Shown piece by piece: positions 10,326 to 21,390 of a stretch of DNA of 64,000 bases; the first letter of the stretch is position 1, and every line of letters starts with the position of its first letter. The notes beneath the pieces are model-generated. The model ran no database searches, was not told the DNA's origin, and saw only the letters and a program-made list of their open reading frames with translations. Source of the stretch: Planctomycetota bacterium. Lineage in GTDB: Bacteria > Planctomycetota > Planctomycetia > Planctomycetales > Planctomycetaceae. Location of the stretch: NCBI GenBank assembly GCA_016872645.1, contig VGZH01000018.1, positions 1 through 64,000 of the forward strand. Reading direction: 5' to 3'. The position numbers were made by a program, and so were the translations under genes.

Positions 10326-11465
10326 ATGGCATTTTTCAAACGGACAACCAAAGAACTGCAATGTCTGATCGTCGGCGCGGGAGCGGCGGGGATTGGGATG
10401 GGAAAGACGCTCAAGGATCTCGGTCTCAAGCGGTTTGAGATTGTCGATCGATTTGGCGTCGGGGCCTCGTTCAAACGCTGGCCGAAGGAGATGCGGTTCA
10501 TCACGCCGTCTTTTCCGTCGAACTCGATTCGGATCGTCGATCTCAACGCGGTGACGTTCGATTCGTCTCCCGGCTACACCCTTGGGACCGAGCATCCAAC
10601 CGGTGCGAGGTATGCCGAGTATTTGGAAGCGGTTGTCGCTCATCACAAGCTGCCGGTACGCGACGGTGTGAGTGTGAAGGCCATCCAGCCGCGAGAGGAC
10701 GGCGGTTTTGATGTGGAAACTGACGGTGACACGATTCGCACACGTACGGTCGTGTGGGCGGCCGGGGAGTTTCAATATCCGAACCTGCGGCCGTTTCCCG
10801 GAGCCGAACTCTGCCTGCACAACAGTCGCGTTCGCTCGTGGAAGAAGATCGAAGGGGACGATCCCATCATCATCGGCGGTTACGAAAGCGGCATCGATGC
10901 GGCGATCCATCTGGCTCGACAAGGGAAATCGGTGCGAGTGCTCGAGAAGAAGGGTTGCTGGGAAAGTCAGGAGAGCGATCCCAGCGGCACGCTGTCGCCA
11001 TTCACCTGGGATCGGCTGCACGATGCGGAAGATCGCAGCGAGGAGTTGATCGAACTGTGTGATGGCGTCAGTGTGACTCGCGTGGAACGCACGGCGGACG
11101 GCTATATCATCTATGACACAAAGAAACGGGAATGGAAAACAGCCTGCCGACCGATCCTCGCAACGGGCTTCTCCGGCAGCACGCGACTGATCGCAGACCT
11201 GTTTGAGTGGCGCGACGACGGATTCCCGCTGGTCAACGAACTGGACGAATCGACGATCGCGCCGGGGCTGTACCTGAGCGGCCCGATGCTGCGGCACGAC
11301 GACTACGTTTTCTGTTTCATCTACAAGTATCGGCAACGCTTCGCTGTTGTCGCCCAAGCGCTCGGCCAGCGACTAGAAATCGACACAAACTCCCTGGAAC
11401 AGTACCGCGACTACGGCATGTTTTTGGATGACTTGTCGTGCTGCGGTGACGAGTGCGTGTGTTGA
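10326..11465 (+). CDS. CzcO-like FAD/NAD(P)-dependent oxidoreductase
   Basis: A 379-residue flavoprotein. The FAD dinucleotide-binding motif VGAGAAGIGMGKT is at about residues 17-29, and a second nucleotide motif IIGGYESGIDAA is at about 178-189. The overall layout is that of flavin-containing monooxygenase/CzcO (COG2072), a group often found next to metal resistance genes. The very C-terminus, DLSCCGDECVC, is a four-Cys cluster that could bind a metal or act in a thiol redox step. ATG 10326 is preceded by AGGAG. It lies directly upstream of the FeoB-like permease. The substrate is not evident. Confidence 0.75.
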   Translation: MAFFKRTTKELQCLIVGAGAAGIGMGKTLKDLGLKRFEIVDRFGVGASFKRWPKEMRFITPSFPSNSIRIVDLNAVTFDSSPGYTLGTEHPTGARYAEYLEAVVAHHKLPVRDGVSVKAIQPREDGGFDVETDGDTIRTRTVVWAAGEFQYPNLRPFPGAELCLHNSRVRSWKKIEGDDPIIIGGYESGIDAAIHLARQGKSVRVLEKKGCWESQESDPSGTLSPFTWDRLHDAEDRSEELIELCDGVSVTRVERTADGYIIYDTKKREWKTACRPILATGFSGSTRLIADLFEWRDDGFPLVNELDESTIAPGLYLSGPMLRHDDYVFCFIYKYRQRFAVVAQALGQRLEIDTNSLEQYRDYGMFLDDLSCCGDECVC

Positions 11466-11491
11466 GCTGCCTTCGAAGAGGTGGATTAATC

Positions 11492-11565
11492 ACTAACCCG
11501 ACGCGTCAGCGAGGGCGTCGGGGAATCAAGCGTGAAATCGTCCCTCGCTGACGCGTCGGGTTAGT
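11492..11565. repeat. Perfect 24-bp inverted repeat element
   Basis: Arms at 11492-11515 (starting ACTAACCCGACGCGTCAGCG) and 11542-11565 (ending CGCGTCGGGTTAGT) are exact reverse complements across a 26-base spacer. The 'AACCCGACGCGTCAGCGAGGG' wording is a well-known planctomycete dispersed repeat as far as I recall. It sits between the CzcO-like gene and the FeoB-like gene, and there is no T-run, so a repeat is more likely than an intrinsic terminator. Confidence 0.75.
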
Positions 11566-11589
11566 AATGAAACTCTGGAGAAATTTCCT

Positions 11590-13278
11590 ATGAAACATCC
11601 CCTTCCCATTTCGAATCAACCGAACTCACGTCGTGTGACTCCGCAAATCGTCGTGATCGGCAAGGAATCCGTCGGCAAGTCACAGCTCATCGCGTCTCTC
11701 ACGGGTGAGCGACCGGAGGTGTCGAATCTCAAGGGAACGACACTGGCGTGCTCAACGTATCGTTGGGGTGAGCGAACACTCATCGATACGCCGGGCATTG
11801 AGCGGCAATCGGATTCGGTGACGACGCGCGACGCACTGCAATCGCTGGCTGAGCACGACACCGTGATCCTGGTCGCGGCGGGTACACATCTGGACGACGA
11901 CCTCAAAGACCTATGGCCGTTGGTGGCGGGGAAGCAGGGGATCGTCGTTGTGACGTTCATCGACCGTGTGGTGCACGTCGGGGTGACAGAACGGTTGGAG
12001 GAACTCAGCCAACACGCGGGAGTTTCGTTTGTTGGGGTCGATGCGCGAGCGGTCTCGGCGGAACAGCAGGAGCGATTGCGGATCGCACTCACGGAACCGG
12101 CCGAATTCTCGAAGCAAGCGCCGACGCTGACGACCGGCTGGCGTGTCGAACCGCCGATCACGCTGCTGGATCGGCCGTGGATCGGGCCGTTACTGGCAAT
12201 CTCACTGCTGCTGGGGCCGGCGACATTTGCGGTCTGGTTTGCGAACACGGTCGCTCAACTGCTCGATCCGATCATCGCCGGTTGGCTCAAGCCGCTGGTG
12301 GCGGCCATTCAAGCGTGGCCCGCGTCGTTCGATTTGTTCAAGTCGATGCTCGCCGGACAATACGGGCTGGTCACGATGGGACCGCTGCTGTTCGTGTGGG
12401 CCGCGCCGACGATCGTGCTGTATGCGTTTCTGCTGGCGGCGTACAAAGCCAGCGGCTTGATCGACCGGCTGAACATCGCGCTGCATCCGCTGGCTCGGCC
12501 GTTTGGCCTGTCGGGCCGCGACATCGTGCGCGTCGTGATGGGTTTCGGTTGCAACGTCCCCGCGGTCATCAGCACGCGGTCGTGCTCGTCCTGCACGCGC
12601 GGCTCGTGCATTTCGGCAATCGCGTTCGGATCGGCCTGCTCGTACCAGTTTCCCGCGACGCTCGCGGTCTTCGCGGCGGTTGGTCGTCCGTGGCTGGTCT
12701 GGCCTTACTTGGGATACTTGCTGGTGACGACGCTGATCTATCTGCGGCTGACCTCACCGCGCGATGCCCGCTCGGCATTGAATCTGTTAATCGTGGATCG
12801 GCGGCACTTCCTGGAATGGCCGCGAGCAAGTTCCCTGTGGCGAGAAGCTCGCGACACGCTGCGGCAGTTTTTCTTCCAAGCATTGCCGATCTTCTTCGCG
12901 ATCACGTTGATTGCGTCAGTGCTGGGCTGGTCCGGCTTGTTGGACCGAGCGGCCGCGATCCTGCAACCGTTGATGAGCATGTTTCGCCTCCCCGCCGAAG
13001 CCGCGCTGCCGGTGTTGCTGGCGAGCATTCGCAAAGACGGAATCTTGTTGTTCGCCGGTGGCGAAGAGACCGGTTCAATGGCTGCCGCTTGGACTGCGAC
13101 GCAAGTGCTCACGGCGGTCTATCTGGCAGGAGTCTTGCTGCCTTGCCTCGTGACGGCATTGACGATTGCTCGCGAACAGTCCTGGCGATTTGCCGGAAAG
13201 TTGTTGATTCGCCAAGCCCTCGCCGCCAGCGCGTTTGCCGCGGGACTGGCGTGGTGCGGCCAAGGGATGGGTTGGTAA
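11590..13278 (+). CDS. FeoB-like GTPase-permease, compact form
   Basis: A 562-residue protein. The N-terminal G domain has G1 GKESVGKS (24-31) and G3 DTPG (66-69); the G4 position reads TFID instead of NKxD, so guanine specificity may be altered. From residue 197 onward there are about eight membrane helices in two nucleoside-recognition (Gate) halves. The FeoB hallmark GFGCNVPA is at 318-325, but what follows is a Cys-rich stretch (C332, C335, C340, C350; RSCSSCTRGSC) where FeoB normally has a RLPVY-type segment. FeoB imports Fe(II); here the surrounding genes point to zinc or another metal, which is inference. The length is well below classical FeoB (about 750). The adjacent gene at 13302 looks co-transcribed. 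Confidence 0.8.
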   Translation: MKHPLPISNQPNSRRVTPQIVVIGKESVGKSQLIASLTGERPEVSNLKGTTLACSTYRWGERTLIDTPGIERQSDSVTTRDALQSLAEHDTVILVAAGTHLDDDLKDLWPLVAGKQGIVVVTFIDRVVHVGVTERLEELSQHAGVSFVGVDARAVSAEQQERLRIALTEPAEFSKQAPTLTTGWRVEPPITLLDRPWIGPLLAISLLLGPATFAVWFANTVAQLLDPIIAGWLKPLVAAIQAWPASFDLFKSMLAGQYGLVTMGPLLFVWAAPTIVLYAFLLAAYKASGLIDRLNIALHPLARPFGLSGRDIVRVVMGFGCNVPAVISTRSCSSCTRGSCISAIAFGSACSYQFPATLAVFAAVGRPWLVWPYLGYLLVTTLIYLRLTSPRDARSALNLLIVDRRHFLEWPRASSLWREARDTLRQFFFQALPIFFAITLIASVLGWSGLLDRAAAILQPLMSMFRLPAEAALPVLLASIRKDGILLFAGGEETGSMAAAWTATQVLTAVYLAGVLLPCLVTALTIAREQSWRFAGKLLIRQALAASAFAAGLAWCGQGMGW

Positions 13279-13301
13279 TCGCCACATCGGAGAATGCTTA
13301 C

Positions 13302-13934
13302 ATGATACAGCTTTCCAAAAAGCAATTGGCCGCGCGAATGGGACTATCGCGCGATCAATTCAACAATGCCATCAAGCTGTTCGATCAACAACTTTGGTGT
13401 TGGGGCGAGGACGTGAAACGGCCGAATGGAAACCTGCTGGTCGCTTGTGGCTTTGAACGAATCCCACCACCGAAAGGGCAAGAGCAGTTTGGTAGCATGT
13501 ACTCGCGGCGAATCCGGCGGGGCGGCCGGATCGTGTTGCGTGGCTGGGGCCTGTTGATCTCTGATCGCAAGCACGGAGCGATACTCCTCAAGCGATATGG
13601 GTTCACGCCAGAGTTACTTTCTGGCGAAGAAATTCCGACGCAGCTATGGGATACCAGCGACCTGCCGAAGCTGATCTCGCCGCAATCGGATGTCGACGTG
13701 TCGCGTGTGTTGTTCCTGTTGTCTGCCGCCTGCCGCTGGGTCGTCAGCTATGAAACTTGGTTGCGTCTCAGGATTGGCATGAAGCATCGCGAAACCAGCA
13801 TTGAACACTGGAAGAAAATGAAGAAAACCAACTTCTCGTGCGACGAAGTGGATCGGCTGTGGCGGCTGTTAGCGAAGCGGTTGGAAGAGGCTGCGATTCG
13901 ACTGGAAAAGTCCGTACTGGCTCGCGCGGCGTGA
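13302..13934 (+). CDS. Uncharacterised protein coupled to the FeoB-like gene
   Basis: A 210-residue soluble, basic protein. The start (LSKKQLAARMGLSRDQFNNA) reads like a helix-turn-helix, followed by a region with FERIPPPKG and RRIRRGGRIVLRGWG, and a long C-terminal helical part. ATG 13302 has GGAG 9 bases upstream and is 24 bases after the FeoB-like stop. Small FeoC proteins that accompany FeoB are winged-helix proteins, so a regulatory or accessory role is conceivable, but this protein is much longer and I see no Cys cluster. I do not recognise the family. Confidence 0.6.
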   Translation: MIQLSKKQLAARMGLSRDQFNNAIKLFDQQLWCWGEDVKRPNGNLLVACGFERIPPPKGQEQFGSMYSRRIRRGGRIVLRGWGLLISDRKHGAILLKRYGFTPELLSGEEIPTQLWDTSDLPKLISPQSDVDVSRVLFLLSAACRWVVSYETWLRLRIGMKHRETSIEHWKKMKKTNFSCDEVDRLWRLLAKRLEEAAIRLEKSVLARAA

Positions 13935-14014: not shown

Positions 14015-14581
14015 ATGCGAACTCAAACGGGAATGTGGTTGTTGTCAGCGTCGGTGATGCTGGGCCTGTCGGGACTGGCTGGCTGTGGCGGAGACAAAGG
14101 GGGCGAGTACCGTTCCTTCGATAAAGGCAAGGACGCCGCACCCGACGCCGAGACCGGAAAGGTTCACACGCACGATCATGACCACGGTCATGGGCCACAC
14201 GAAGGTGAGCTGATCGAACTCGGCGAGGAAGAATTTCACGCGGAAGTCGTCGTCGATGAAAACAAATACAAGCTCACTCTGTATTTGCTCGGTGCTGATG
14301 CGAAGACCGCAGTGGCCATTGACGCGAAGGAACTCACACTGGAGATGCCCGGCAAGGACGCTCCCGTCAAGTATGCCCTGAAGGCTGGGCCTGGGGACGC
14401 CGATGGCAAAGCATCCCATTTTGAAATCACCAGCGAAGCGTTGTTCGACGCATTTCATGAGAACTCGAAGGCCGTTGGCAAGTTCAACGTCAGCATCGGC
14501 GGCAAAGAGTTCACCGGAGAAATCAAACACTCGCACGATGATGACCATGATCACGATCAAAAGCACGAAGAAAAGAAATAA
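14015..14581 (+). CDS. His-rich metal-binding lipoprotein
   Basis: A 188-residue lipoprotein: basic start, hydrophobic h-region and lipobox LAGC at about residues 21-24. After the Cys comes a HTHDHDHGHGPHEGE stretch (about 51-65), then a domain of about 100 residues (AEVVVDENKYKLTLYLLG) similar to the N-terminal domain found in some CusB-type adaptor proteins, and a second His/Asp cluster at the C-terminus (HSHDDDHDHD). It probably binds Zn(II) or Cu(I/II) in the periplasm and hands it on or buffers it. The CobW gene follows 160 bases downstream. A related domain occurs in 29521-30333. Confidence 0.75.
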   Translation: MRTQTGMWLLSASVMLGLSGLAGCGGDKGGEYRSFDKGKDAAPDAETGKVHTHDHDHGHGPHEGELIELGEEEFHAEVVVDENKYKLTLYLLGADAKTAVAIDAKELTLEMPGKDAPVKYALKAGPGDADGKASHFEITSEALFDAFHENSKAVGKFNVSIGGKEFTGEIKHSHDDDHDHDQKHEEKK

Positions 14582-14742: not shown

Positions 14743-16098
14743 ATGAACGAGCGTGAATTGACATCCACGGCAAGAAGGGAAACGGACGATCACGCGTTTG
14801 AGCGACCGACGGCTGGCTCGTCGGCCTCCCGATCTCCAAACGCTACGCGGTTGCCCGTGACGGTCCTGTCTGGGTTTCTCGGCGCGGGGAAAACGACGTT
14901 ATTGAATCATGTGCTGCGGAACCGCGAAGGCCGGCGCGTGGCGGTGATCGTCAACGACATGAGCGAAATCAACATCGACGCCGCGCTCGTACGGGGCGGC
15001 GATGCGGCACTCAGTCGCACCGAGGAACAACTCGTCGAGATGACCAACGGCTGCATCTGCTGCACGTTGCGAGAAGACTTGCTGCGCGAGGTCAGCCGGT
15101 TGGCTCGCGAAGGGCGGTTCGATTATCTGCTGATCGAATCGACGGGCATTTCAGAACCGCTGCCCGTGGCAGAGACATTCACTTTTGAAGACGAGAACGG
15201 CGTTGGCCTAACGTCGCTCGCGAGACTCGACACGCTGGTGACGGTCGTCGATGCGGCGAACTTCCTACGCGAACTAGATGCAGAAGATGATCTCGCGACT
15301 CGTGGCTTGGGCCGCGATGCCGAGGATGACCGTGGCATCGGGGCGCTGCTGATTGAACAAGTCGAGTTCGCCGATGTGATCGTTTTGAACAAGACCGATT
15401 TGATCGACGAGCACCATCTGCAACAGCTTGAACGATTACTCCGCGACTTGAACTCGACAGCGAAATTGGTGCGGGCAAAGTTCGGTGATGTCCCGCTGAG
15501 CGACCTGCTGGAAACGCACCGCTTCGATTTCGAGCGCGCGACGCAATCGCTGGATTGGCTGGCGACACCACGCGAGCACATTCAATCCGAAGCAGACGAG
15601 TACGGCATCCGCAGTTTCGCATACCGGTCACGCAAGCCATTCCATCCGCAGCGGTTGTGGGATTTCATCAACGGCGACGTTCTCTCCGGCGTCTTGCGTT
15701 CCAAAGGTTTCGCGTGGCTCGCCAGCCGTCATGAACTCGTCGGCCAGTGGTCGTCGGCCGGAGTGGAATTGACTCTCAACGCAGGGGGCACTTGGTGGGC
15801 CGACACGCCGCAAGACGAATGGCCGAACGAACCCGTTGAAGTCGCCGAGATTCTCTCGTTTTTCGCGGGCGAGCATGGCGACCGTCGCCAAGAACTCATC
15901 TTCATCGGCATTGATCTCGACGAACCCACGATCCGCAGCGGCCTCGACAACTGCCTACTGTCAGAGGCCGAGTTCCGTCTCGGTCCGACGTGCTGGACGA
16001 AACTCGACGACCCGTTCCCGAACTGGCTCGACACACTCGACGGCACTGACCTCGCCGCCGAGTGCTCCGATCCAAACCACCACCACAGCCTCCCGTGA
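14743..16098 (+). CDS. CobW/COG0523 family GTP-binding metallochaperone
   Basis: A 451-residue G3E GTPase. Walker A is FLGAGKTT (G47-T52 for the GAGKTT part), the metal-binding motif NGCICC is at 103-107, the Walker B/ESTG region follows at about 136, and the base motif NKTD lies near residue 217. The C-terminal CobW_C domain covers about 290-430, and the end ([10 protein letters not shown]) has three His. COG0523 proteins use GTP to load Zn(II) or other metals into client enzymes, especially under zinc limitation. A second, more diverged family member lies at 20035-21390. The gene runs convergent with the His-rich gene at 16132. Confidence 0.92.
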
Positions 16099-16131: not shown

Positions 16132-16476
16132 CTAGCCAGCAATAGAAACGGATCCGTGATGGTCGCAGTGGCCGTTGTGCGGATGGTGCAAGTGACCATC
16201 GACCAGATAGTCGATGTGGTCACCATGTGGCACTGCCGGGTGTCCGCAGCCGGGTCCATGAACATGATCGGCCGCATGGCCGGAGCACGCATGGCCGCGG
16301 CCGCAGGAATCGGGATTCGCCGCACTCACGGGCAGCGTGTGTTCCTCCACCGAGCCGTCGGCGGCCTGATGATGCAGATGACCGTCGTGCAAGTAGTCGG
16401 TGTGTCCGTCGTGTTGCACGGCGACGTGGCCGCAGCCGGGACCGTGCGTGTGATCGTGATTGGCATGGTGTGACAT
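16132..16476 (-). CDS. Small His-rich protein with tandem HGPGCGH repeats
   Basis: A 114-residue soluble protein with about a quarter His. It has two copies of a unit that begins HGPGCGH, continues with DHxDYLxDGHLHH and is separated by a linker; the repeat spans about residues 10-40 and 72-104. There is no signal peptide, so it is cytoplasmic. ATG (complement of 16474-16476) has AAGGAG 7 bases upstream, a strong site. It probably buffers or senses zinc in the cytoplasm. It is adjacent to the SmtB-type repressor on the same strand and likely shares its control. Confidence 0.75.
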   Translation of the reverse strand: MSHHANHDHTHGPGCGHVAVQHDGHTDYLHDGHLHHQAADGSVEEHTLPVSAANPDSCGRGHACSGHAADHVHGPGCGHPAVPHGDHIDYLVDGHLHHPHNGHCDHHGSVSIAG

Positions 16477-16566: not shown

Positions 16567-16917
16567 TCACTCGTGTTCGTTGCCGTGCGCCAGCGCGTTA
16601 GCGATCAGATCGCGAACGTGCCCGTCGGCCAACGAATAAAAAACGTGTTTGCCCTCGCGACGAGCGGCGACGATTCGCTCCGCTCGCAATGTTTTCAATC
16701 GCTGTGACACGGCCGACAGGTTGTCGTCGAGTATTCCCGTGATCTCGGACACGCACAGCTCGCGTGACATCAACAGCGACAGCAACCGCAGACGATTCGT
16801 GTCACCGAGCGCTCGGAAAATGCCCGCTGCCCGCTCGCATGCCAAAGACTCAACCGGGCGAACGTCTGCCCGACTCGTGTGTTCGTGCGCTTCCAGTTCT
16901 TGATCTTCGTCCGGCAT
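16567..16917 (-). CDS. ArsR/SmtB-family zinc-sensing repressor
   Basis: A 116-residue winged-helix protein. The recognition helix region is LSAVSQRLKTLRAE (about 67-80). In the ELCVSEI segment, C55 and E58 stand where SmtB has its alpha3 site residues. In the C-terminal helix D98, H100, H111 and E114 have exactly the spacing of the SmtB alpha5 zinc site (D, +2 H, +13 H, +16 E), with H115 next to it. That spacing strongly suggests Zn(II) sensing. Family members repress transport genes in the apo form and leave DNA on metal binding. An AT-rich inverted repeat at 16947-16971 lies 30 bases upstream and faces the divergent ZIP gene. Confidence 0.92.
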   Translation of the reverse strand: MPDEDQELEAHEHTSRADVRPVESLACERAAGIFRALGDTNRLRLLSLLMSRELCVSEITGILDDNLSAVSQRLKTLRAERIVAARREGKHVFYSLADGHVRDLIANALAHGNEHE

Positions 16918-16971: not shown

Positions 16972-17134
16972 CGGATTCATCAAGTGATGTTTTGATTAAT
17001 CCTTTGGACCACCGATTTTTGCCGTCGAGTTGAACTGCCAAAAGGCAAAAGCTACATAGCGTTTACGTCATTTGCTGGTCATCCGAAATTTGTCTCACTC
17101 AGCAATTGCCCGTGAGGTCCCATTGGCCAGTCCG

Positions 17135-18064
17135 ATGATTTTGCTAACCGTCTATTGCCTGCTGATCGTGGGAGCCTCGCTGTTTGGAGGCTTCGTGACC
17201 TCGTTGATTCGTCTGACTCATCGCCGGATGCAGCATATGACGGCCGGTATTGGTGGGCTGATGCTGGGTGTCGGAGTTTGGCATCAGATTCCCCATGCTC
17301 TGGCGACGGTGTCGGGACCGGGAGCTATTAATTGGTGCATGGGTTGGATGCTGGCGGGACTGCTGCTGACTTTCGCGATGCTCCGCCTGGGCCACGTTCA
17401 TATTCATGCAGAACCAGAGAACGAAGCGCCCGACGGGAACGACGCCAAGCCAAGCGATTGTTCTCACGACCACGATCATGACCACGCGGCTTCCGGACGC
17501 GCGGTGAGCTGGTTCGGAATTTTCTTGGGACTATCGCTGCACACATTGTTGGACGGAGTCGCATTAGCTGCACATGTCCAAGCGGACTCGCTGCATCATG
17601 CGGGAGAAGTGACGTGGCTGATGGGCTTGGGAACATTCGTCGGCATCTTCCTGCACAAGCCGCTCGATTCGCTGTCGATCACTGGCTTGATGGTGGCTCG
17701 TGGTTGTTCCGCGCGATGGCGGCATCTCATCAATGGCGGCTACTCGTTGATGTGTCCTCTGGGCGCGATGCTGTTTCATTGGGGCGTCCAGCAGTTCTCG
17801 AAATCGCAAGCGGAATTTGTCTCAGCCGGCCTGGCGATGTCGGGGGGGGTCTTTATCTGCATCGCCATGAGCGACCTGTTGCCCGAAGTTGATTTCTCAT
17901 CACGCGGCCGCATCGCCCGAGCTTTCACGGTGCTGCTAGGGGTCGCCGCCGCCTGGGCCATCGGCTTACTCGAACCGGAACAAGCCCACGAAGCTGCCGC
18001 ACGACCGGAAGCGCACAAGCACGAATATCACAATCACAAACACGCTCAAGGCCACAAGTATTAG
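17135..18064 (+). CDS. ZIP-family zinc transporter
   Basis: A 309-residue membrane protein (from ATG 17135) with eight predicted helices. A cytoplasmic loop after helix 3 is His-rich (HDHDHDH at about 111-117). Helix 4 has HTLLDG (136-141) in place of HSxxDG, and helix 5 has HKPLDS (174-179) in place of HExxxE, so the binuclear metal site is partly altered. The C-terminal tail ends in another His cluster. ZIP proteins bring Zn(II) or Fe(II) into the cytoplasm. The start is uncertain: TTG 17123 has GAGG 5 bases upstream, and TTG 17072 is also in frame. The gene is divergent from the zinc repressor, and the operator lies between them. Confidence 0.9.
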   Translation: MILLTVYCLLIVGASLFGGFVTSLIRLTHRRMQHMTAGIGGLMLGVGVWHQIPHALATVSGPGAINWCMGWMLAGLLLTFAMLRLGHVHIHAEPENEAPDGNDAKPSDCSHDHDHDHAASGRAVSWFGIFLGLSLHTLLDGVALAAHVQADSLHHAGEVTWLMGLGTFVGIFLHKPLDSLSITGLMVARGCSARWRHLINGGYSLMCPLGAMLFHWGVQQFSKSQAEFVSAGLAMSGGVFICIAMSDLLPEVDFSSRGRIARAFTVLLGVAAAWAIGLLEPEQAHEAAARPEAHKHEYHNHKHAQGHKY

Positions 18065-18303: not shown

Positions 18304-18768
18304 TCAAAGACAGTTCACACAGTGGCCTCGCAGGAGGATTTCGGTGACCTTGCCGACGGCACGCGATTTGGGGAGCTGGACGGTCACGTCGGTCAGACAG
18401 GTGACGTGGCCGCAGTCAAGGCAGACGAAATGCGGATGTTCCCGGTCGTCGTGTGCTCGTTTCCCGGTGGCGGCTGTTTTAGGGGTGACGTGCTTGAATT
18501 CGTAGCGGCGAATCTGATCGCCGATGTCCAGTCGGATGAGCAGTCCAGTGTCGGCCAATTCGATTAGCGCGCGATAGGCCGTGGAGGGATCGAAACCCGA
18601 TTCCCGCAGCCGTTCCGCGACGTCACTGTGACTGAGTGGCTGATCGGACTGAGAGAGCAATCGCAAAATGGCGATGCGGCTAGGCGTGCATCGCAGGGCG
18701 GCGGCCTTGAGCTGTTCGCGAGCCGATTCCACGCTGACAGCTCCGCTGGTTTTTTTGGGGGCGGGCAT
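18304..18768 (-). CDS. Fur/Zur-family metalloregulator
   Basis: A 154-residue Fur-family repressor with an N-terminal winged helix (TPSRIAILRLLSQSDQPLS at about 28-46) and a C-terminal dimer/metal domain. The motif HPHFVCLDCGHVTCL gives H111, H113, C116 and C119; a second pair C150/C153 closes the structural Zn site at the very end. Length and Cys pattern fit Zur or Fur; the zinc-gene surroundings favour Zur, which is inference. ATG at 18766-18768 (complement). It is divergent from the small membrane gene at 19011, with the TTGCAG/CTGCAAA palindrome between them. Confidence 0.88.
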   Translation of the reverse strand: MPAPKKTSGAVSVESAREQLKAAALRCTPSRIAILRLLSQSDQPLSHSDVAERLRESGFDPSTAYRALIELADTGLLIRLDIGDQIRRYEFKHVTPKTAATGKRAHDDREHPHFVCLDCGHVTCLTDVTVQLPKSRAVGKVTEILLRGHCVNCL

Positions 18769-18885: not shown

Positions 18886-18910
18886 TTTGCAGATGTATTC
18901 CACCTGCAAA
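18886..18910. promoter_or_regulatory. Candidate Fur/Zur operator upstream of fur-type gene
   Basis: TTTGCAG at 18886-18892 and CTGCAAA at 18904-18910 are exact inverted repeats over 11 bases; a further TTGCAA follows at 18915-18920. The site lies in the divergent promoter region between the regulator gene and the gene cluster starting at 19011, where an autoregulated Zur would bind. Confidence 0.5.
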
Positions 18911-19010
18911 TCACTTGCAAAAGAGGAGGCACAGCTTATTCTACGACCTACACAATGAAGTACGGACTTAGTCGAACGTGAAGTTTCTTTTTTGGAAAGG
19001 TCATCCGATC

Positions 19011-20034: not shown

Positions 20035-21390
20035 ATGACCACAACTTCCGAGCGTGTGCCGGTCACCGTGTTGACCGGGTTTTTGGGTTCGGGCAAGACG
20101 ACGTTGCTCAATCATGTGTTGACGGCCAATCACGGCAAGCGGATCGCCGTCATCGAGAATGAGTTTGGCGAGGTTGGCGTCGATCAGGAATTGGTCATCA
20201 ACGCCGAGGAAGAAATCTTCGAGATGAACAACGGCTGCATCTGCTGCACCGTGCGGGGCGATCTGATCCGCATTCTCGGCAATCTGATGAAACGAAAGGA
20301 CAAGTTTGACGCGATCATGATCGAGACGACCGGACTAGCTGACCCTGGTCCTGTCGCGCAGACGTTCTATGTTGATGACGAGATGCAGCAGAAGCTGAAA
20401 CTGGACGCCGTCGTCACCGTCGTTGATGCCAAGCACGTCTGGCAACACTTCGACACCGACGAGGTGCAGGAGCAGATCGCCTTTGCCGACGTGATCCTGA
20501 TCAACAAGATCGACCTCGTGTCGGCCGACCAGCTGAACCAGTTGGAGGCTCGCATCCACAAGATGAATGCTGCCGCGCGAATTTATCGCACACGGAACTC
20601 GGTCGTGGAGATGGATCGGATTCTGAATGTCGGCGGGTTCAATCTCGACCGGGCTCTGGAGGTCGATTCGAAATTCCTTGAGCCGGAATACCCGTTCGAG
20701 TGGGGCGGGGTGTTCGAGTTGACGGAGGGAACGTTTCGCTGGGAAATGCAACCCGGTCCCGACCCGGCGATGAACTTGATCGTGTTGCCGACCAGCGACA
20801 GCGGATCGGGACTGGAATCGGTGCTGATGGATGCCGTGCTGACATATTCGGACGCCGAACGACCGGTCGCACCCGGCGGCGACATTGCGATCGGCAAGAC
20901 GCTCAATCAGTTGCAGCTTAGCGAGGCGACATCCACGTTCCGGCTGTCGGTCCCACAGCGCGGCCGCTACGCAATCTTCACCGAGCATCATCCCGACGAA
21001 TTCCAGGCGCGGTTGATCCGTGAGTCGGACGCGATCGCGGCGACCGAGACGCGTGAGTACAAGCCGGATCATGAGCACGACGACGAGGTTTCGTCGGTCG
21101 GCATTACCACTCCGGGGGATTTGGATCTCGGTAAGTTCCAAGCGTGGCTGCAAACCTTGCTAATGACCAAAGGCCAGGACATCTTCCGCATGAAGGGGGT
21201 CTTGAGCATGAAGGGCCACAACCAACGCTTCGTCTTTCAGGGAGTTCACATGCTGGTCGACAGCGACTTTGACCGACCGTGGCACAAAGATGAAGAGCGT
21301 CACAACTCACTAATCTTCATCGGCCGAGGACTCGACCGAGAGGAACTCAACGCTGCGTTCAAGTCCTGCCTGGCGATCAGTCGCAAATAA
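20035..21390 (+). CDS. CobW/COG0523 family GTP-binding metallochaperone, second copy
   Basis: A 451-residue G3E GTPase with GSGKTT at 18-23, the metal motif NGCICC with C68, C70 and C71, ETTGLADPGP at about 101, and the base motif NKID near residue 160. Compared with the first copy it has an extra segment of about 90 residues around 215-310 between the GTPase core and CobW_C. A HEHDDE stretch (about 346) precedes a C-terminal domain that ends with FIGRGLDREEL. The group with a HxHD loop is the ZNG1/YjiA-like branch, linked to zinc delivery. It is last in the operon that begins at 19011 and is followed by the WD40 gene. Confidence 0.92.
   Translation: MTTTSERVPVTVLTGFLGSGKTTLLNHVLTANHGKRIAVIENEFGEVGVDQELVINAEEEIFEMNNGCICCTVRGDLIRILGNLMKRKDKFDAIMIETTGLADPGPVAQTFYVDDEMQQKLKLDAVVTVVDAKHVWQHFDTDEVQEQIAFADVILINKIDLVSADQLNQLEARIHKMNAAARIYRTRNSVVEMDRILNVGGFNLDRALEVDSKFLEPEYPFEWGGVFELTEGTFRWEMQPGPDPAMNLIVLPTSDSGSGLESVLMDAVLTYSDAERPVAPGGDIAIGKTLNQLQLSEATSTFRLSVPQRGRYAIFTEHHPDEFQARLIRESDAIAATETREYKPDHEHDDEVSSVGITTPGDLDLGKFQAWLQTLLMTKGQDIFRMKGVLSMKGHNQRFVFQGVHMLVDSDFDRPWHKDEERHNSLIFIGRGLDREELNAAFKSCLAISRK

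Follow-up and report, generated by a model that had tools for sequence, protein, structure and literature searches.

The locus analyzed here raises the question of which metal is carried by a FeoB-like permease with additional cysteines at its gate, and what the flavoprotein encoded next to it contributes. In the window, i.e. the whole 64,000-nucleotide stretch of planctomycete DNA that was analyzed, a CzcO-like NAD(P)/FAD flavoprotein of 379 aa (Pyr_redox_3; PF13738, 317 bits; 10326..11465, plus strand) is followed on the same strand by a FeoB-like GTPase-permease of 562 aa (11590..13278) and an accessory protein of 210 aa (13302..13934). An earlier note on this DNA had proposed that the metal is one other than Fe(II), with a redox or thiol step linked to it. 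The coordinates and motifs it reported (GFGCNVPA with its Cys segment, TFID and CCGDECVC) are exact, and the cysteines are conserved in a clade of related proteins. Its view of the metal is supported and can be specified as zinc by Zur boxes, zinc-starvation neighbours and the separate position of the clade. The permease, a member of the FeoB superfamily, probably imports Zn(II) under the control of Zur, with the flavoprotein acting as reductant and/or metal acceptor.

Like FeoB (TIGR00437; PF02421, PF07670), the permease has an N-terminal G domain followed by a Gate-type membrane domain. Pfam scans gave FeoB_N (PF02421) at 43.8 bits vs. a cut-off of 27 and Gate (PF07670) at 63 bits, above its cut-off, but the TIGR00437 feoB score was 103 bits, about one third of the curated cut-off of 315.65; Klebsiella and Bacillus members of the clade scored 119 and 104 bits. 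The protein carries GFGCNVPAVISTRSCSSCTRGSC, and its G4 position reads TFID. It keeps GFGCNVPA and the canonical gate cysteines C321, C350 and C519, which are invariant in an alignment of the clade with canonical FeoBs; C519, the conserved cysteine of Gate 2 (13144..13146, plus strand), is found in 27/27 clade members and 21/21 canonical proteins. Unlike FeoB, the clade has an added Cys-x-x-Cys (C332, C335), which together with GFGCNVPA and C321 makes up the Gate 1 segment (12541..12594, plus strand). This hallmark follows GCNVPA in 27/27 clade members and 0/21 aligned canonical FeoBs. Since C332 and C335 are invariant in all 27 aligned clade members and absent from all 21 aligned canonical FeoBs, they are not a product of chance. 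The canonical gate cysteine C350 opens a CSYQ motif (12637..12648, plus strand) present in every one of the 27 clade members, where canonical FeoBs mostly have C-x-A-R.

The nucleotide-binding motifs differ as well, with GxExxGK in place of GxPNxGK and TxxD in place of NxxD. In the G1 motif GKESVGKS (11659..11682, plus strand; canonical FeoB, GxPNxGK[ST]) E26 is found in 27/27 clade members vs. P in 21/21 canonical FeoBs, and S27 in 23/27 vs. N in 21/21. At G4 (TFID, 11953..11964, plus strand) the clade has T or S in 27/27 vs. N in 18/21 canonical proteins, and the D is present in all. An AF2 model of the permease (pLDDT 88) contains an NFeoB-like G domain (Z 19.6 over 155 residues, 2.4 A) and lacks the NFeoB helical domain: the last helix of the G domain ends at residue 168, and 198 is where the first long helix of the membrane part begins, the yardstick being an NFeoB (G plus helical domains) of about 260 residues. 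Some members have lost the G domain altogether; GTP is not essential, as staphylococcal clade members have no GTPase domain.

Comparison of the FeoB-like protein with FeoB by phylogeny, as the earlier note had suggested, placed the proteins with Cx2C in a clade apart from canonical FeoB with support 100/100, both in the final tree with 21 canonical FeoBs and in a first tree with only 5. The Cys segment was also sought in Fe(II)-type FeoBs, where its presence would have counted against a different metal, and was not found among the canonical FeoBs retrieved. The system is present in bacteria, archaea and about 500 Klebsiella plasmids, and the invariant CxxC spans archaea and bacteria. Clade proteins, those of the Klebsiella plasmids included, are annotated as 'ferrous iron transporter B' or 'nucleoside recognition domain protein'. 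No account of this permease-flavoprotein system was found in the open-licence literature searched; the system is widespread and appears to be undescribed so far.

As to whether the three genes occur together, the flavoprotein was found in 13/13 planctomycete genomes with the permease compared with 28/297 overall (P=2e-15), and the third gene in most planctomycete loci and few others. A tailed flavoprotein without the permease occurs in 15 of the 28 planctomycete genomes carrying the flavoprotein, and its role is therefore not exclusive to the permease.

Family scans of the window show genes of the ZigA-like, ZIP and Fur-family types no more than 8 kb from the pair. Downstream of the accessory gene lie a His-rich lipoprotein without a Pfam family (14 His in 188 aa; 14015..14581, plus strand), a ZigA-like COG0523 zinc metallochaperone GTPase (14743..16098, plus strand; NF038288, 589 bits, below the cut-off of 600), a small His-rich protein (16132..16476, minus strand), an ArsR/SmtB-type metalloregulator (16567..16917, minus strand; NF033788, 82 bits, cut-off 55), a ZIP-family zinc transporter (17072..18064, plus strand; PF02535, 56 bits, cut-off 35), a Fur-family regulator (18304..18768, minus strand; PF01475, 46 bits) and a second COG0523 GTPase (20035..21390, plus strand; PF02492 and PF07683). 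The Fur-family protein is a candidate Zur, its Fur or Zur subtype not being resolved by NCBIfam.

In relatives, zinc-starvation or Zur-regulon genes (COG0523/ZigA, Zur, ZnuABC, backup CysRS, ThrRS, HisI, gamma-CA and FolE2) were counted within the fetched flanks of up to 10 kb, and are near the pair in 21/27 clade loci vs. 3/56 canonical FeoB loci (P=2e-11). Two or more of these families occur together in 10/27 and 1/56 loci, respectively. With the ZnuB and ZnuC profiles alone the clade loci did not differ significantly from the controls, and one canonical FeoB locus (L086) is also situated among zinc genes. Plasmid islands of Klebsiella (L132) and Pantoea (L151) surround the pair with ThrRS, PyrC, gamma-CA, FolE2, DksA, COG0523, Zur-type repressors and ZigA. 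The former is of the same type as the island on Klebsiella plasmid pLVPK, which was predicted to be Zur-regulated in a study of COG0523 and backup enzymes (Haas et al. 2009, PMC2770081); no mention of FeoB, a flavoprotein or a permease was found in the main text of that paper.

Zur boxes with 0-2 mismatches precede the flavoprotein gene or operon in most of the cyanobacterial, Bacillota and gamma-proteobacterial loci tested. L039 and L056 each carry a box, TGATAATGATTATCA, 47-48 nt upstream; TCGTAATNATTACGA occurs with 0-1 mismatch in L060, L062, L135 and L150. Weaker boxes with 3 mismatches were seen in L061 and L132, and L057 had none up to 200 nt from the starts that were tested. Zur control of the operon in relatives is thus a well supported prediction from boxes and neighbours. 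In the window itself no recognizable Zur box was found before the operon, and comparison of planctomycete loci yielded neither a shared palindrome upstream of 10326 nor a Zur consensus for the group. A palindrome TGCAAATCACTTGCA before the Fur-family gene (18905..18919), with only 2 exact sites in the genome, is a candidate operator; similar TGCAA..TTGCA sites are present in L139 and L147. Palindromes TGCAANNNNNTTGCA, located near the Fur-family gene here and in L139 and L147, were rejected as a planctomycete Zur box, as the genome has only 2 exact sites and the operon is preceded by none. An inverted repeat between the flavoprotein and permease genes is a dispersed genome repeat and not an operator.

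The flavoprotein terminates in DDLSCCGDECVC, of which the metal-binding-like tail CCGDECVC (11439..11462, plus strand) is part. Among 24 partners, which range from archaea to Bacillota, 21-23 have kept the cysteines of this CCx(2-3)CxC tail. The solved structure 3D1C of S. aureus, a 'flavin-containing putative monooxygenase', is homologous over the full length (E 1e-64) and has the same type of tail (CCxxxCxC). The protein differs from other CzcO/YpdA-type flavoproteins in its link to the permease; neither a YpdA/Bdr bacillithiol disulfide reductase (TIGR04018, 75 bits vs. a cut-off of 339.9) nor an ArsO flavin monooxygenase (NF040505, 46.5 bits vs. 425) was recognized. An arsenic link, considered from the weak ArsO similarity and from ArsR and aquaporin genes downstream in L002, was discarded as limited to one lineage. 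A linked thiol/redox partner, as proposed earlier, is supported. A redox step is a plausible hypothesis, and the tail may simply bind metal. E. coli FeoB has a cytoplasmic polycysteine tail, CCAASTTGDCH, proposed to receive the metal (PMC10647171); the tail here is likewise of the CC...C type and on the cytoplasmic side, but is carried by a separate flavoprotein and not by the permease.

We infer that Zn(II) is the cargo and that it moves inward. The permease would be a Gate-domain protein of the nucleoside-recognition fold with a degenerate FeoB-type GTPase domain, through which Zn(II) would cross the inner membrane via thiol sites at C321, C350 and C519 and the CxxC by the first gate. The flavoprotein would work on it from the cytoplasmic side; hypothetically, its tail accepts the ion as it enters, its NAD(P)H/FAD core holds the pore and tail thiols reduced, or both. 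COG0523/ZigA chaperones would then hand out the imported zinc and, in relatives, Zn-loaded Zur would repress the operon. In predicted role, regulation and neighbours the pair resembles the Zur-regulon importers ZnuABC and ZIP/ZupT, to which the proteins are unrelated. As many relatives also carry ZnuABC or ZIP, other importers often stand beside the system. A bolder version, which we regard as rather unlikely, would make the system a third general class of zinc importer in prokaryotes. Its gate would be lined with thiols and under redox control; the flavoprotein would open or unload the channel by reducing the CxxC of the pore and/or its own tail, and zinc entry would be driven or licensed by NAD(P)H rather than GTP. 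This would account for the members that lost the GTPase domain.

Zur control fits any zinc-starvation function, not zinc import alone. The permease might import Fe(II), or Mn or Co, during zinc starvation to metallate replacement enzymes such as an iron-type gamma-carbonic anhydrase or FolE2. The FeoB ancestry and the retained Gate cysteines agree with such a cargo under zinc control, and some Zur-regulated replacements have been suggested to be iron enzymes (Haas et al. 2009, PMC2770081). We nevertheless consider it improbable: the remodelled pore region has acquired soft-metal thiols, the staphylococcal pair adjoins a zinc ABC binding protein and COG0523 instead of replacement enzymes, and a second Fe(II) gate is less needed because a canonical FeoB is already encoded elsewhere in the same planctomycete genome and in Moorena SIO3I8 (L067 alongside L042).

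The unusual loss of the FeoB helical domain, the degenerate GTPase motifs and the members without any GTPase could instead reflect another way of moving zinc or a zinc-thiol complex, such as export or redistribution or uptake in metallophore- or thiol-bound form, or else a role as membrane sensor and not as transporter. This has a low probability, as the gate domain is kept in full and Zn-repressed control is expected for uptake, efflux normally being induced by excess. That Pfam still recognizes the Gate and G domains would suit an ordinary paralogue of the Fe(II) transporter FeoB whose motifs have drifted and whose zinc neighbourhood is incidental, but this is strongly disfavoured, and in our judgement very improbable, in view of the Zur boxes, the count of zinc neighbourhoods (21/27 vs. 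3/56), the low TIGR00437 score, the 100/100 clade and a CxxC that is invariant from archaea to bacteria.

If the clade does import zinc, a widespread route of nutrient uptake has been missed and many annotations name the wrong metal. In addition, the old question of the role of the FeoB GTPase domain, and of how the gate selects metals, could be approached directly through the flavoprotein partner and the members without a GTPase.

The 210-residue product of the third gene had been described as having an HTH-like start. This reading was dropped: the Pfam HTH_29 score is 20.5 bits, below the cut-off of 28.1, and is confined to the window protein, the N-terminal stretch being absent from relatives, in which no Pfam family was detected either. 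An AF2 model (pLDDT 86) gave no Foldseek match at E <= 0.001, and a second look with VIA-align (Z <= 6.3) gave nothing usable. The protein is an accessory without a recognizable fold, characterized by the motif QxWCWGxD..GNxL..GF, and its homologues lie next to the pair at most of the planctomycete loci as well as in L045, L047, L055 and L059.

The earlier note had placed three genes in the window, and their positions proved exact: a flavoprotein gene (10326-11465; 379 aa, confirmed to end in CCGDECVC), a gene for a FeoB-like permease (11590-13278; 562 aa, with both GFGCNVPAVISTRSCSSCTRGSC and TFID present) and a third gene (13302-13934; 210 aa). In a Pfam profile search the permease exceeded the cut-offs for two domains, Gate and FeoB G, and against the NCBI feoB model it reached only 103 bits (cut-off 315.65). 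Since the same genome encodes a true FeoB on contig C61 (main stretch 485 bits, 523.5 with its neighbours), the window protein is a second, divergent member. An inverted repeat, CTAACCCGACGCGTCAGCGAGGG...CCCTCGCTGACGCGTCGGGTTAG, lies between the first two genes (11492-11565); its arm has 11 occurrences across the genome, some of them paired, and it is thus a dispersed repeat.

The permease has relatives (32-61% identity) in cyanobacteria, haloarchaea, Nitrosopumilus, Chloroflexota, Verrucomicrobiota, gamma-proteobacteria, Bacillota and, patchily, planctomycetes (13 of 297 genomes from this class). They form a clade of their own within the FeoB superfamily: a maximum-likelihood tree separates 27 members from 21 canonical FeoBs with support of 100/100, and in a column-by-column alignment C332 and C335 (residue numbers of the window's permease) are present in all 27 members and in none of the 21. 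Other clade-specific invariant columns are R337, F346-G347, Y352 and G484, while Q353, R481 and D483, also invariant in the clade, are rare in canonical FeoB (3 or 4 of 21). The G1 motif GxPNxGK of canonical FeoB is replaced by GxE[S]xGK and the G4 motif NxxD by TxxD, whereas C321, C350 and C519 are common to both groups. In Pseudomonas aeruginosa FeoB, the conserved Cys429 and Cys675 have been proposed to serve the pore (PMC4847171). In the AlphaFold2 model of the window's permease (pLDDT 88) the G domain resembles NFeoB (Z 19.6 to 7BWV) and leads nearly straight into the membrane part, the helical domain being absent; C321, C332, C350 and C519 fall at or beside helix breaks.

The permeases of Staphylococcus epidermidis (L150:9041-10423, 460 aa) and S. 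arlettae (L152:7208-8365, 385 aa) are without P-loop or G domain but retain GFGCN, CxxC and CSYQ, which argues that the conserved core is the thiol gate with the flavoprotein and that GTP hydrolysis is dispensable. Each has a zinc ABC binding protein next to it, along with a COG0523-type GTPase that in S. arlettae is annotated only as GTP-binding protein.

The flavoprotein gene is found in the neighbourhood of 24 of 27 permease relatives vs 0 of 56 canonical FeoB loci. Four genomes without an adjacent copy were tested: three carry the gene at another place, and the fourth, in which it was not found, is an assembly of 2 Mb. Permease and Cys-tailed flavoprotein are paired at the genome level: all 13 permease-bearing planctomycete genomes have the flavoprotein, vs 28 of 297 overall (P 2e-15). 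Another 15 planctomycete genomes have the flavoprotein but not the permease, which shows that it is not restricted to permease-bearing genomes. The C-terminal tail of the flavoprotein, (L)DDLSCCx(2-3)CxC, is conserved from archaea to Bacillota, and a solved homologue with an identical tail type, PDB 3D1C from S. aureus, aligns over the full length. Scores for YpdA and ArsO fell below the NCBI cut-offs. A comparable polycysteine tail is part of E. coli FeoB itself, where it is a proposed cytoplasmic metal receiver (PMC10647171); here a tail of this kind may have moved onto the partner, the flavoprotein, which we hypothesize to act as thiol reductant and/or metal acceptor.

A second Cys-tailed flavoprotein of the same genome (L161:433-1689, contig C117) is 57% identical, likewise ends in CCxxxCxC and has no permease beside it. 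In two genomes of the same genus (G510 and G528) this is the sole type, adjoining a conserved 305-aa protein, without the permease. Many flavoproteins of permease-less planctomycete genomes (L182, L183, L185, L186, L188, L189, L191, L192) end in CCxxECxxC rather than CCxxECxC, possibly a subtype marker. In Haloferax (L133:8823-9008) a small S14 ribosomal paralogue stands between the flavoprotein and permease genes, overlapping the permease start by 8 bases.

The third protein is accessory. Its homologues, with the motif QxWCWGxD..GNxL..GF, lie beside the pair at the majority of planctomycete loci as well as at L045, L047, L055 and L059; they matched no family in the Pfam search, and structure searches with the third protein gave nothing informative.

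In the window, the pair is accompanied by genes for a His-rich lipoprotein, a ZigA-like GTPase (14743-16098), an ArsR/SmtB regulator, a ZIP transporter (17072-18064) and a Fur-family protein (18304-18768, minus strand). We compared the neighbourhoods of the 27 first relatives with those of 56 canonical FeoB loci retrieved by the same search, counting COG0523, ZnuB, Fur/Zur, CysRS, ThrRS, HisI, gamma-CA and FolE2 as zinc-starvation-type families. With this list, which was picked after the loci had been seen and agrees with the Zur-associated genes of Haas et al. 2009 (PMC2770081), at least one family was nearby in 21 of 27 clade loci vs 3 of 56 canonical ones (P 2e-11); two or more were nearby in 10 of 27 vs 1 of 56. 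Annotated plasmid records point the same way: in a Klebsiella plasmid region (L132), HemB, dihydroorotase, ThrRS, gamma-CA, FolE2, DksA, COG0523 and a repressor are followed by the pair and then by ZigA, HisI and a second repressor, with variations in Pantoea (L151), Haloferax (L133), Acaryochloris (L134) and Paenibacillus (L135); for the Klebsiella island, Zur regulation has been predicted (PMC2770081). About 530 plasmid records match the clade, 499 of them from Klebsiella. No description of a transporter of this clade was found in the open-licence literature searched. Among the control loci, only one in a Cyanobium contig (L086:494-11818) has clearly zinc-related surroundings: there a canonical-type FeoB is flanked by zinc genes (COG0523, ZnuABC-like, Fur-family, HisI) and ferritin-like genes.

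The pair belongs to predicted Zur regulons across phyla. In relatives, a consensus search revealed near-perfect boxes a short distance before the flavoprotein gene or the operon containing it. One fixed consensus was used per group, for cyanobacteria, Bacillota and gamma-proteobacteria. The cyanobacterial box TGATAATNATTATCA lies 40-50 nt upstream in L039, L041, L042, L043, L056 and L134, with 0-2 mismatches; with one mismatch it stands ahead of the first gene of the operon in L040 and, in L050, 27 nt ahead of the gene preceding the permease; upstream regions of nine canonical cyanobacterial FeoB genes had no site with fewer than four mismatches. The Bacillota box TCGTAATNATTACGA is present with 0-1 mismatch in L060, L062, L135 and S. 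epidermidis L150. In L061 the site before the flavoprotein gene or operon has three mismatches and a perfect one precedes COG0523, and in L057 no such box lies 200 nt or less from the tested starts. The gamma-proteobacterial TGTTATGTTATAAC[AG] is present in L051, L058 and L151; L132 has a weaker palindrome. Group-specific palindromic Zur boxes have been described (PMC6103462, PMC4324032, PMC10957091), in passages that do not print these exact strings. From neighbourhoods and boxes we infer that the system imports zinc.

No Zur box could be recognised at the window's own operon, where the planctomycete box may differ from those of the groups above. Before the window's Fur-family gene, at 18905-18919, lies the palindrome TGCAAATCACTTGCA, which has just one other exact copy in the genome and is a candidate planctomycete Zur operator; related TGCAA-type palindromes occur at L139 and L147.
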